DNA of 64,000 nucleotides from Acidovorax radicis (GTDB lineage Bacteria > Pseudomonadota > Gammaproteobacteria > Burkholderiales > Burkholderiaceae_C), in assembly GCF_020510705.1 (NCBI RefSeq), contig NZ_CP075184.1:682001-746000 (forward strand), read 5' to 3'. The position numbers were made by a program, and so were the translations under genes. Within the stretch, counting starts at the first letter, position 1; the number at the start of each line of letters is the position of its first letter. Positions 18,301-21,763 of the stretch are shown piece after piece. Under the pieces are notes generated by a model. The model was not told the DNA's origin and searched no databases. It was given only the letters and a program-made list of their open reading frames with translations.

Positions 18301-19086
18301 TTACCGGGCTTGTCCTAGGGTGGCGGCCAGCCGGGTCTCGCAAGTGACACGATCTGCATCAAACAGCTGGTCCATCAACGCGCGTTCGCGCGTCTCGATG
18401 GTGGCCAGAAACTGCTCGACGCCGCCGCGCTGGCGCGACAGCTGGCCAAACGTGTCGAAACCCGCTTCCAGAAAGTCCTGCAGCGCGCCCATGCCTGCGG
18501 CGTGGGCGGGCGCTCGCATCATGCGCAGCATCATCCGCAGGCCCGGCGTGCGGGTCAGGCGCGCGAGATCACGGCCCATGGCCAGCACGCGCGCCAGCTG
18601 CGCCTGGCGTGCCATGCGCTGGCCCACCGCGCGCCATGCGTCGGCGTAGCGCGCCGCATCGCTGGCGGCATCAGAGGTTGGCGGGGATGCGGGGGCGAAA
18701 ACCGGGGCAGGGGCGGGTGATTGCGCCACCCATGCGCGGCCCATGTCCTGGTCCAGTGACTCGGTTTGCGCGTGCAATTCGGCCAGCGCCACGGCAGTGG
18801 CTACCACGGGTTGCGGGAAGAGGGTTTGCAGCGTGCCCGCGATGCGACTGAACTGCAGGTCGCGATCGGTGTAATCGCTGTCGCTGTAGAGCTCAGTGAG
18901 AAAAAACCGCGCGGCCGGGCCGAACGAGGGGGAGCCCATGATGTCGGCATACGTGCCCCTGAAACGCCGCGCCTGCAAGGTTTTGACGGTGCCCACCGCC
19001 GCTCCCAGCAAGGGGTCGCCCGTGCGGTGCAACCGCAGCGCGGTGACGGTGGCAATGCAGTCTCGAATGGTGTGGGCCGCATCCAT
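18301..19086 (-). CDS. FFLEELY-like motif protein, unknown function
   Basis: This gene encodes a 261-residue soluble, mostly helical protein. Residues 61-67 are FFLTELY followed by SDSDYTDRDLQFSRI; this resembles a family I know as FFLEELY motif proteins, whose function is unknown. A low-complexity Ala/Pro/Ser stretch (about residues 122-145) separates two helical halves, the second rich in Met/Arg (LRMMLRMMRAP). The ATG at 19086 was chosen because the upstream extension runs antisense to the lipase-like gene. It is in the same direction as fadD, 105 bp upstream of it. Confidence 0.8.
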   Translation of the reverse strand: MDAAHTIRDCIATVTALRLHRTGDPLLGAAVGTVKTLQARRFRGTYADIMGSPSFGPAARFFLTELYSDSDYTDRDLQFSRIAGTLQTLFPQPVVATAVALAELHAQTESLDQDMGRAWVAQSPAPAPVFAPASPPTSDAASDAARYADAWRAVGQRMARQAQLARVLAMGRDLARLTRTPGLRMMLRMMRAPAHAAGMGALQDFLEAGFDTFGQLSRQRGGVEQFLATIETRERALMDQLFDADRVTCETRLAATLGQAR

Positions 19087-19233
19087 GGGGGGCGTTCTCC
19101 TTGTCAAAACGTCTGCAATCGTCTGCAAGACGGCGGTATCTGGCGCTGTAGTGTGGAGGCCTCGCCCAGGGCACCGGGCGGCACAATGCGGCCTGTTCAT
19201 TTCATCACACCCCCACTGGGAACCCTCATCCCC

Positions 19234-20130
19234 ATGATTGCGCGCTTCCAAAGGGCCTTTGTCTTGTTTCAACTGCTCGCCATGGCCGCCTGGTTGTGGT
19301 GGTGGTGGCCGCAATCGCCCGTGTGGGCGCTGGCGGGGGCGGCCGTGCCTTTGGGGGTGTTCCTGTTCGTCATGACCATGGAGTTTGTGGTCATGCATGT
19401 GACCAACCGCTCTGATGGTGCACCCCGCGCGCGCGCGGCGCAGGTGGTGGCCGCCTGGTGGGCCGAGGTGCGCTCCGCGTTGCTGGTGTTTTGCTGGCGC
19501 CAGCCCTTTCGCCACCGCTCGCCGCCTGACTGGCTGCCCTCCGAGCCTACGGGCCGGCGCGGTGTGGTGCTGGTGCATGGGTTCATGTGCAACCGGGGCA
19601 TCTGGCTGCCCTGGTTTGCGCCGCTGCGCCAGGCCGGCCATGCCCACGTGGCCGTGAACCTGGAGCCGGTGATGGGCTCGATCGATGCCTACAGCACCAC
19701 CATTGAAGACGCTGTGTTGCGCGTAACGGCGGCCACCGGTGTGCCGCCCGTGTTGGTGTGCCACAGCATGGGCGGCTTGGCGGTGCGCGCGTGGTTGCGG
19801 GCCCATGGTGCGGACGACCATGTCCACCGTGTGTTGACGCTCGGCACGCCCCACGGGGGCACGTGGCTCGGGCGCTTCAGCCGGGCGGTGAATGGTCGGC
19901 AGATGAGCCTGGCAGGGGACTGGGTGGTGGCGCTACAGCGCGCCGAACCGGCGGGGCGTGCTGCCTTGTTCACGTGCTGGTATTCCAACTGCGACAACAT
20001 CGTTTTCCCTGCGAGCACGGCGGCGCTGGCGGGAGCGGACAACCGGCTGGTGGACGGGGTGGCGCATGTGCAAATGGCCTTGCATCCGGCGGTGATGCGG
20101 GCTTGTTTGGAGGAGATTGGGTGGGGGTGA
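19234..20130 (+). CDS. Membrane-anchored alpha/beta hydrolase, lipase-like
   Basis: This gene encodes a 298-residue protein. Two N-terminal hydrophobic segments (FVLFQLLAMAAWLWWWW and WALAGAAVPLGVFLFVMTM, about residues 8-50) are followed by an alpha/beta hydrolase domain. The domain has GVVLVHGFMCNRGIW (oxyanion loop) and the nucleophile elbow LVCHSMGGLAVRAW (GxSxG), then TLGTPHGGTWLG. A histidine near the C terminus (DGVAHVQMALH) could complete the triad. The pattern fits triacylglycerol lipases and PGAP1-like esterases. The ATG at 19234 was taken because it opens the first membrane segment; the long upstream extension is antisense to the FFLEELY-like gene. Confidence 0.88.
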   Translation: MIARFQRAFVLFQLLAMAAWLWWWWPQSPVWALAGAAVPLGVFLFVMTMEFVVMHVTNRSDGAPRARAAQVVAAWWAEVRSALLVFCWRQPFRHRSPPDWLPSEPTGRRGVVLVHGFMCNRGIWLPWFAPLRQAGHAHVAVNLEPVMGSIDAYSTTIEDAVLRVTAATGVPPVLVCHSMGGLAVRAWLRAHGADDHVHRVLTLGTPHGGTWLGRFSRAVNGRQMSLAGDWVVALQRAEPAGRAALFTCWYSNCDNIVFPASTAALAGADNRLVDGVAHVQMALHPAVMRACLEEIGWG

Positions 20131-20140
20131 TTTTTTGCTG

Positions 20141-20190
20141 TTTTTGACCTCTGGTGCTTGTATGCCAAGCGTTGGTCGCTATGGTTTTTG
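20141..20190 (+). repeat. Dispersed palindromic repeat, copy G (left end of large palindrome)
   Basis: Reads TTTTTGACCTCTGG, TGCTT, GTATGCC, AAGCG, TTGGTCGCTATGG. It is degenerate in the central arms but aligns with the complement of copy H along its whole length. Confidence 0.7.
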
Positions 20191-20247
20191 TAGTTCGCAC
20201 TGTGCCTGATTGAAGGGCGGAGGCCGGGTTGTCGCCCCGGCGGGCGA

Positions 20248-20281
20248 GGTACTTTTCTTTGCTTCGCCAAAGAAAAGTACC
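20248..20281. repeat. 14-bp perfect hairpin in left arm
   Basis: GGTACTTTTCTTTG, a 6-nt loop, then its exact complement. A matching hairpin (13 of 14 pairs) is found in the right arm at 20774-20807. Confidence 0.85.
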
Positions 20282-20864
20282 CAAAAGAAAGGCGACCCCC
20301 AGTCTGCGACCCCTTCGCTGGGCGAAGGGGCAAACCTGCGTCGGGGCGGTTGCGGGGTGCGCCGTGGAACTCGCTTTGCGCTGCGCGCGCCGCTCGGACA
20401 ACCGCGGCGAGCTAGACAACGAGGCATGGGCGCTTCGACGCCCATGCTCACCCCGCAACCGCCCCGACGCAGGCGCAGCCAGCAGGGGGTGGACAGCCGA
20501 ACATCCAAGCAGCCACACGGGCCATCGCTGCGCTCGGCTTCGCGGTCGCGGCGCGAAGCGCCTGCGCGTTCCGGGCCGAGCGCAGCGATGGCCCGTATGG
20601 ATGTCCGGTTGCGGGCTCCCTTCAGGATGCGCAGCGGCCAGCGGATCAGGGCTCGCGATTGTTTGAGCGCAACGCAGTGGAGCGAGTTCGAGCGAGACCC
20701 CGCTGGACGCGAGCACCGCAGGTTGCCAGCAGCGAAGCGAAGGGACGCAGCGTGTAGGGGCGCCCTTTCTTTGGTGACTTTCTTTCGGCGACGCGAAAGA
20801 AAGTTACTCGCCCGCCGGGGCAAAATCCCGGCCTCCGCCCTTCAATCAGGCACAGTGCGACTAC

Positions 20865-20915
20865 AAAAACCATAGCTATCAGCGCTTTATGGATAGGCGC
20901 CAGAGCCCAATTTCA
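20865..20915 (-). repeat. Dispersed palindromic repeat, copy H (right end of large palindrome)
   Basis: On the plus strand AAAAACCATAGCTATC, AGCGCTT, TATGGATA, GGCGC, CAGAGCCCAATTT. Inverted relative to copy G. It lies 9 bp from the phhA stop. Confidence 0.75.
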
Positions 20916-20923
20916 TTAAAAAG

Positions 20924-21763
20924 TCAAGCCGCCAGAGCTTCCCGCTCATCCGCAGCAAACTCCTGCAACCCCCGCAGCCGCTCATAGATCGGCGCAAAGT
21001 CCGCCGCCGTCATTTCAAACAGTTGCTCAAAACTGTCGATCACAAAATACGTCTGCTGGTACGTATCGATCTTGTAGCGCGTGCGCATGGTGCGCTCCAG
21101 TTGCAGCGCAATGCGCTGCGGCTCCGGGCTCTGCACCGAGTACGCCAGCTCGCCCGACGAACTCAAAATGCCCGCGCCATACGCCCGCAACTGACCCGCC
21201 TCGCGGATCAGCCCGAACTCGATCGTGTACCAGTACAGGCGGCTCAGCATCTCGCACGACCCCAGTCCCTGCGCCTTGAGCCCACCCTGCCCATAACGCT
21301 GCACATAGTCGGCAAACACCGGGTTGAACAGCAGCGGCACATGGCCGAACAGGTCGTGGAAGATGTCTGGCTCGACGATGTATTCGAACTCCTCGGGCTT
21401 GCGGATCCAGTCCGTCACCGGGAACTTGCGGTTGGCCAGCAGGGTGAAGAACGGCACCTCGGGGATCAACCCCGGCACGCCCACCAGCTCCCAGCCGGTG
21501 GCCTTGTAAAGGCGCTCGTTCACCTCTTCAAAGCGCGGGATGCGGTCGCTCGCGCCCAGCGACGGCAGGGCGTCGATGAACGCCTGGCTGGCCAGCCCCG
21601 GCAACAGCGCGCGCTGGCGCTCGTAGAGCCTGCGATAGGTGTCGTGGTCGGCGGCGGTGTAGCTTGCGTAATCCTGCGGGCAGGTGTAGTCCTCGTTGGC
21701 GCGCGAGTAGTCGCCACGGGGTGGGCGGGTGGATTGACCATAGACGACGGGGGCTTGTCCCAT
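20924..21763 (-). CDS. phhA: Phenylalanine 4-monooxygenase
   Basis: This gene encodes a 279-residue pterin-dependent iron enzyme that hydroxylates phenylalanine to tyrosine. The iron ligands are seen in EPDIFHDLFGHVP (two His) and LYWYTIEFGLI (Glu). GELAYSVQSPEP and YFVIDSFEQLFE are typical C-terminal segments of the bacterial monomeric form. hppD on the same strand supplies the next committed enzyme of tyrosine catabolism. The gene ends at the border of the large palindromic element. Confidence 0.95.
   Translation of the reverse strand: MGQAPVVYGQSTRPPRGDYSRANEDYTCPQDYASYTAADHDTYRRLYERQRALLPGLASQAFIDALPSLGASDRIPRFEEVNERLYKATGWELVGVPGLIPEVPFFTLLANRKFPVTDWIRKPEEFEYIVEPDIFHDLFGHVPLLFNPVFADYVQRYGQGGLKAQGLGSCEMLSRLYWYTIEFGLIREAGQLRAYGAGILSSSGELAYSVQSPEPQRIALQLERTMRTRYKIDTYQQTYFVIDSFEQLFEMTAADFAPIYERLRGLQEFAADEREALAA

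Follow-up and report, generated by a model that had tools for sequence, protein, structure and literature searches.

The window, a 64,000-nucleotide stretch of the Acidovorax radicis chromosome, contains between two convergent genes a non-coding stretch of about 0.65 kb that folds on itself at several nested scales. The gene on the left matches Pfam Abhydrolase_6 over 19234-20127 (E=2.4e-7) and the gene on the right matches Biopterin_H (E=3.1e-50). An earlier note, made from the sequence alone, had placed a nested inverted-repeat element at 20141..20915, and we recovered it there with the following features.

18766..20130, + strand: left flanking gene, alpha/beta-hydrolase fold, directed toward the element (longest open reading frame, start uncertain)
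20146..20194, + strand: left outer layer, copy of dispersed repeat B (B core 20176-20194, 3 mismatches)
20198..20228, + strand: left terminal inverted repeat (CACTGTGCC...AGGGCGGAGGCCGGG; from sequence and the aligned ends of 56 copies)
20232..20247, + strand: hairpin 1 of the left arm, GC-rich, terminator-like in a consensus scan
20248..20281, + strand: hairpin 2 of the left arm (inverted-repeat scan; covariation)
20282..20299, + strand: conserved linker of the left arm (CAAAAGAAAGGCGACCCC)
20320..20520, + strand: asymmetric middle, which serves to orient copies
20335..20473, no strand: inner palindrome 1 (stems 20335-20362 and 20446-20473)
20510..20603, no strand: inner palindrome 2 (stems 20510-20538 and 20575-20603)
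20757..20773, - strand: linker of the right arm
20774..20807, - strand: hairpin 2 of the right arm
20807..20824, - strand: hairpin 1 of the right arm, terminator-like in a consensus scan
20827..20857, - strand: right terminal inverted repeat (from sequence and the aligned ends of copies)
20860..20910, - strand: right outer layer, inverted copy of dispersed repeat B (B core 20860-20878, 2 mismatches)
20924..21763, - strand: right flanking gene, biopterin-dependent aromatic amino acid hydroxylase, directed toward the element

The outer arms (20195-20298 and 20757-20860) are 104 nt long and 83% complementary, and an outward extension of 67 nt (20128-20194 and 20860-20926) is 72% complementary; the arms are the inverted copies that the earlier note described, although about 80% alike and not near-identical. 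The smaller repeats that it had listed were all borne out, namely a 14-bp hairpin in each arm (20248-20281, 100% paired; 20774-20807, 93%), an inner inverted repeat with a perfect 25-bp core (20335-20362 and 20446-20473, 28 nt, 96%), a second with a perfect 20-bp core (20510-20538 and 20575-20603, 29 nt, 93%), and two ends that are inverted copies of a dispersed repeat, here termed B. Repeat B matched twice in the 64-kb window at up to 3 mismatches and not at all in 100 shuffles. When folded as single-stranded DNA, 676 nt of the element form one continuous nested hairpin of -281 kcal/mol, compared with a mean of -167 kcal/mol in 20 shuffles (z = -22.8), and the element is therefore not a product of chance. 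The analysis supports the description of a composite element, in which inverted repeats are nested and inverted dispersed repeats form the boundaries, and no transposase lies within it, as the earlier note had claimed. In the window, the linker (CAAAAGAAAGG, 20282-20299) is a near-tandem repeat of the 3′ strand of hairpin 2 (CAAAGAAAAG, 20268-20281), so that the T-rich strand could pair with either.

Two other dispersed repeats, A (CCGTTCGGGCTGAGCTTGTCGAAGC-like) and B, supply the outer layers of the element as inverted copies. Among the 62 Acidovorax copies with recognizable terminal repeats (two more, without them, were dropped), A or B was found on at least one side in 57 and on both sides in 34, against a background of 0 of 494 windows for each repeat. 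In the flanks of loci L061-L100, many copies are enclosed by A (CCGTTCGGGCTGAGCTTGTCGAAGC) and B (AGCTATTGATTTTGTAGT), arranged in inverse order, and approximately 40 weaker B-like matches occur elsewhere in the window's own genome. In its anatomy, the element thus joins several repeat families in inverted order in intergenic DNA, as an intergenic mosaic does. The window's own site was examined in 30 Acidovorax loci, and the core was at least partly present in 21. Among the nine loci without it, both flanking genes were found in five, which form a graded nested series: 48 bp between the flank matches with no repeat (L242), a single B-like unit (L237), B-A-A′-B′ (L233), B-A-terminal repeats-A′-B′ (L223), and a decayed version with remnants (L227). 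Build-up of the palindrome and decay from its center both fit this series, which cannot decide between them.

Recurrence of the element was surveyed in its own genome, in relatives and in broader collections, and it proved to be multi-copy rather than a single unique occurrence. The 4,995,154-bp chromosome carries eight copies, of which the one at 4.62 Mb is partial. Of 60 genomes, 38 matched: its own, 32 of 35 further members of the genus and, with weak matches, 5 of 24 that represent other families. The three genomes of the genus with no match were G002, G003 and G030; G002 is nearly complete (two contigs), and loss or a basal position are possible reasons. A conserved 31-base pattern matched 100 stretches in a collection of named genomes, and the 80 matches listed bore mostly Acidovorax titles, with Paenacidovorax, Giesbergeria and others also present. 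In a sample of the family, 55 of 200 genomes matched, and outside the genus it was often the arm alone that matched, frequently as an inverted pair. Copies range from approximately 0.55 to 0.86 kb across hosts. The window's element also matched 15 plasmid records, and several of these are in fact large replicons or include housekeeping genes. No matches to the element were found in phages or in E. coli, nor in viral contigs searched with one exact pattern.

The element does not behave as a gene for a protein. Divergence at the three codon positions was 0.111, 0.103 and 0.104 with no periodicity, length differences were spread over the remainders of division by three (24, 20 and 19), and 44 of 63 copies contained a stop; a protein-coding gene was rejected on these grounds, and no conserved protein was found to be encoded across the element. 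A protein search returned 639 look-alike translations. The few names among the best 120 read ‘hypothetical protein’, and one of these 120 has a Pfam domain and exceeds the query in length.

The most widespread part of the element is its arm, which consists of GC-rich hairpin 1 (mostly 5-6 bp), a spacer of usually 3 nt, hairpin 2 (ACTTTTCTTTG...CAAAGAAAAGT) and the linker CAAAAGAAAGG. When a model (R1) covering hairpin 2 and the linker was run against 398 genomes sampled across the phylum, 47 genomes in 35 of 213 genera matched at E<=1e-5. Strict filters make this a lower bound, and six of the 47 have a single or a few weak matches and belong to one family outside the class. Named hosts of the arm include Pasteurella multocida, Aeromonas caviae, Pseudoalteromonas, Burkholderia, Comamonas, Variovorax and Paraburkholderia. 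The P. multocida copy adjoins dapF: a 0.43-kb version (L243, 2990-3420) begins a few bases past the dapF stop and has its own long inner inverted repeat, in a record that is labeled a plasmid but bears clpB, dapF and xerC.

Both hairpins are conserved with compensatory changes across Beta- and Gammaproteobacteria, which bears out the covariation of stems that the earlier note had proposed to check. In 48 distinct matches to hairpin 2, aligned by fitting to a model that contains some of these sequences, 95.9% of cells pair and 11 of 14 pairs change on both sides, a level reached in 0 of 500 shuffles. In 25 of 32 diverse loci, hairpin 1 stops 1-7 nt short of the T-rich stem, and 14 different stems occur among them; the corresponding counts were 41 of 576 in control windows from these loci and 146 of 3200 in shuffles. 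The other seven loci, including that of P. multocida, lack hairpin 1. Because the arm can still be recognized across genera ranging from Acidovorax to Pasteurella and both of its stems show compensatory changes, it is probably recognized by some conserved factor. The imperfect pairs of hairpin 2 read on the inward strand were A.C in 19 cases and G.T in none, and Acidovorax arms lean likewise (left 42:5; right 71:27, read inward). This skew stems mainly from one pair and from related sequences, and gives only a hint against an inward RNA.

Copies in more distant genomes follow the same plan. G446, a genome of the same class, carries at least 40 copies or large parts of 0.8-0.86 kb (40 candidates scored, 14 copies retrieved) with sharp 27-bp inverted ends. 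In some of the retrieved copies (L298-L311), a third outer repeat (GGTTCTTCGCGGAATCTCGGGAAAGTCAGTC and variants) lies beyond these ends. No target duplication was visible by eye in the 14 copies, nine of which have both ends within 4 mismatches, and one exact pattern for an empty palindromic target, searched with no mismatches allowed, gave no match in G446. In the Acidovorax site series, likewise, no target duplication or precise empty site was seen, divergence there hiding the exact junctions. In G641, stems of 104, 99 and 50 nt lie in nested order, so that the whole 0.6 kb is a quasi-palindrome. Paraburkholderia replicons each have at least 37-40 hairpin places, and a 0.55-kb two-armed version occupies one site in 6 of 6 replicons, the left flank being common to all six and the right flank rearranged in two; no insertion polymorphism was seen at this one site.

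In nine complete Acidovorax genomes, 64 copies could be placed by flanking similarity at 20 orthologous sites. Two further sequences, a copy in G007 at 740,707 and a 74-base fragment in G032, both codirectional by position, were left out. Of 19 classified sites, 12 lie by majority between convergent genes, five are codirectional, two antidirectional and none divergent, according to a custom gene finder that had been trained on the window. This compares with 7 convergent pairs among all 53 gene pairs of the window, including those inside operons (Fisher p=7e-5). The element's preference fits one reported for stem-loops in general, which according to the available text of PMC1590033 favor convergent regions, and is not specific to it. 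Gene context outside the genus, assigned by a longest-ORF rule, was dropped after it contradicted the annotation at L247.

Although they occupy fixed intergenic sites, the copies of one genome evolve in concert. Identity of the middle was 0.894 between different sites of one genome, 0.865 at one site in different genomes and 0.859 otherwise, a difference reached in 0 of 2000 within-site shuffles, and the nearest relative of a copy was in its own genome for 36 of 63 copies, at that site in another genome for 3 and somewhere else for 24. Copies are thus more alike within a genome than at one site across species, for which gene conversion is the simplest explanation. Within a single copy, the two arms resemble each other only slightly more than do arms taken from different copies of that genome (0.786 vs. 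0.776; 33 of 2000 shuffles). Compared between species, two sites carry the element inverted in place with respect to the genes on either side (L048 and L049 vs. L033, L056, L062, L077 and L098; L095 vs. L039, L051 and L100), as expected for recombination between inverted arms.

The interpretation we would back, at about even odds, is that of an old, non-coding and non-autonomous dispersed mosaic of nested inverted repeats, forming one long imperfect palindrome that spread in the past and has been homogenized by gene conversion. Its layers would be B and/or A, the terminal inverted repeat, the two-hairpin arm and the inner palindromes. Copies may have spread long ago by means of some enzyme or by recombination, their mobility being read from their dispersal and not observed, and would since have been kept alike by conversion from copy to copy and, to a weak degree, from one arm to the other, at 3′ intergenic ends that tolerate or keep them. 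Observed directly are dispersed copies that occupy fixed, orthologous positions in intergenic DNA, for the most part between convergent genes, along with their freedom from coding constraint, the concerted evolution of copies within a genome, and the conservation of the two-hairpin arm, with compensatory changes, across Beta- and Gammaproteobacteria.

A purely selfish, MITE-like element, with two-hairpin arms recognized by a putative transposase and with no present function, is a serious if doubtful contender. It would account for terminal inverted repeats without coding capacity, for the dispersal of sharp-ended copies in G446, and for modular outer layers and an occupancy of the window site that varies between species. 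It fits poorly with sites that are orthologous across species, with copies that evolve in concert and with hairpins that have both changed in a compensatory manner between classes; no target duplication was visible by eye, no autonomous partner has come to light, and the phage search and the one-pattern search of viral contigs were empty. A link to RAYT transposases was rejected, the hairpin model occurring at 0 of 42 PF01797 loci; beside 12 such loci in Acidovorax, B was found once and A never, and PF01797 was present in 34 of 40 genomes with the hairpin vs. 15 of 20 without it, so that the element is not limited to transposase carriers. The composite non-autonomous element suggested in the earlier note therefore stands as to its composite, non-coding nature, while no target duplication, polymorphic insertion or linked enzyme was seen. 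That note had also considered a structured RNA. Covarying hairpins and extreme foldability agree with a large structured RNA gene, but we regard one as very improbable, since the two arms favor opposite strands, G.T and A.C mismatches of the outer arms are balanced (367 and 324) and give no consistent strand signature, no promoter-like site appeared in a scan, and the 11 Rfam matches up to E=5, to eukaryotic microRNA models and weakly to a plant SRP model, all fell far below the gathering score.

The orientation of copies raises a different alternative, in which the asymmetric middle must point with the replication fork, as a signal for fork progress, repair or chromosome layout. With dnaA taken as the origin and its antipode as the terminus, 58 of 64 copies and, by majority, 19 of 20 sites in the nine Acidovorax genomes run in the direction of replication (binomial p=4e-5 over sites). 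This holds, again by majority, for each of the 12 convergent sites, and gene direction therefore does not explain the orientation. In three genomes, of which two include exceptions to the orientation rule, GC skew had the sign expected for these replichores in 54 of 60 samples; the skew of the core itself is small (0.04). Against such a polar element, G446 showed no bias (25 of 40 copies at the best split vs. a null mean of 25.7), a hand count of 12 oriented copies from five further genomes of the family came out even (6:6), four sites (2, 3, 7 and 13) are of mixed orientation, two sites carry in-place flips, and G002, of the same genus, has no copy at all. The bias was rejected as a general rule, and the role in replication or segregation that the earlier note had raised keeps the Acidovorax bias in its favor and the G446 result against it. 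Insertion preference, selection against harmful inversions between copies and a polar function would all fit the bias, and we hold the last, as a replication-polar chromosome element, to be improbable. A similarly slim chance is given to functional DNA that spans classes, a nested palindrome with protein-recognized arms that is kept and homogenized, and that has become a polar landmark at a few, mostly convergent, Acidovorax sites.

Under the preferred reading of an old mosaic, the likeliest present role, a guess from sequence, would be that of a two-sided transcription barrier, in which a transcript entering from either side may run, in the arm on that side, into a GC hairpin and then a T-rich tract. 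Mirrored arms, the order of hairpin 1 and T-rich tract, and the mostly convergent sites are consistent with this candidate role. However, the T-rich tract lies inside hairpin 2 and starts several nucleotides past hairpin 1, the inward mismatches are A.C and not G.T, the opposite of what tolerance by an inward RNA would give, and 7 of 19 sites are not convergent; terminator-like matches in the element numbered 2, compared with 1.1 +- 1.2 in shuffles. A barrier also does not explain the long interior and the replication orientation.

The element looks like an old, uncharacterized kind of repeated DNA and not like a gene or a one-off. Finding a conserved factor that recognizes the arm would explain many ‘hypothetical’ open reading frames that are element DNA, and the concerted evolution of about eight fixed-site copies, together with their replication orientation, offers a way to study how chromosomes of Betaproteobacteria are laid out and undergo gene conversion. 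We file it as an intergenic mosaic palindromic repeat, a description of whose family was not found in the literature searched, most subscription papers lying outside that search. REP/BIME sequences of enterobacteria and neisserial NIMEs are intergenic, palindromic, modular mosaics with many copies and a preference for 3′ ends, and REP/BIME are mobilized by RAYT, with repeat units flanking or adjoining the Y1 transposase gene. The element resembles both in being an intergenic modular mosaic of inverted repeats with many copies that favor 3′ ends. It differs in forming a single nested palindrome of 0.55-0.86 kb with two-hairpin arms kept over two classes, in lacking a RAYT link, and in having few copies at fixed sites in Acidovorax.

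Other families could be compared by their descriptions, in the available portions of the sources. PMC3542200 is, in its available portion, unrelated to the element. BRE, the beta-proteobacterial repeat element, occurs in Bordetella and Comamonadaceae including Acidovorax, likewise mostly in intergenic DNA, but it is a tandem repeat of about 90 bp and was reported, in the text available, not to be co-oriented with the replication fork (PMC3110155). The Pasteurella family Pam-1 is described as consisting of uptake-signal repeats, which sets it apart from the P. multocida copy of the element. The palindromic intergenic dyad sequences of Haemophilus influenzae, found in Pasteurellaceae and thought to aid the mobility of loci (PMC4144887), are similar as described in being palindromic and intergenic. 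Among the stem-loop families of 40 genomes, Ppu-1 of Pseudomonas putida, with 39 intergenic copies of 617 bp (PMC2267715, PMC1590033), is like the element, by its description, in both size and intergenic place.
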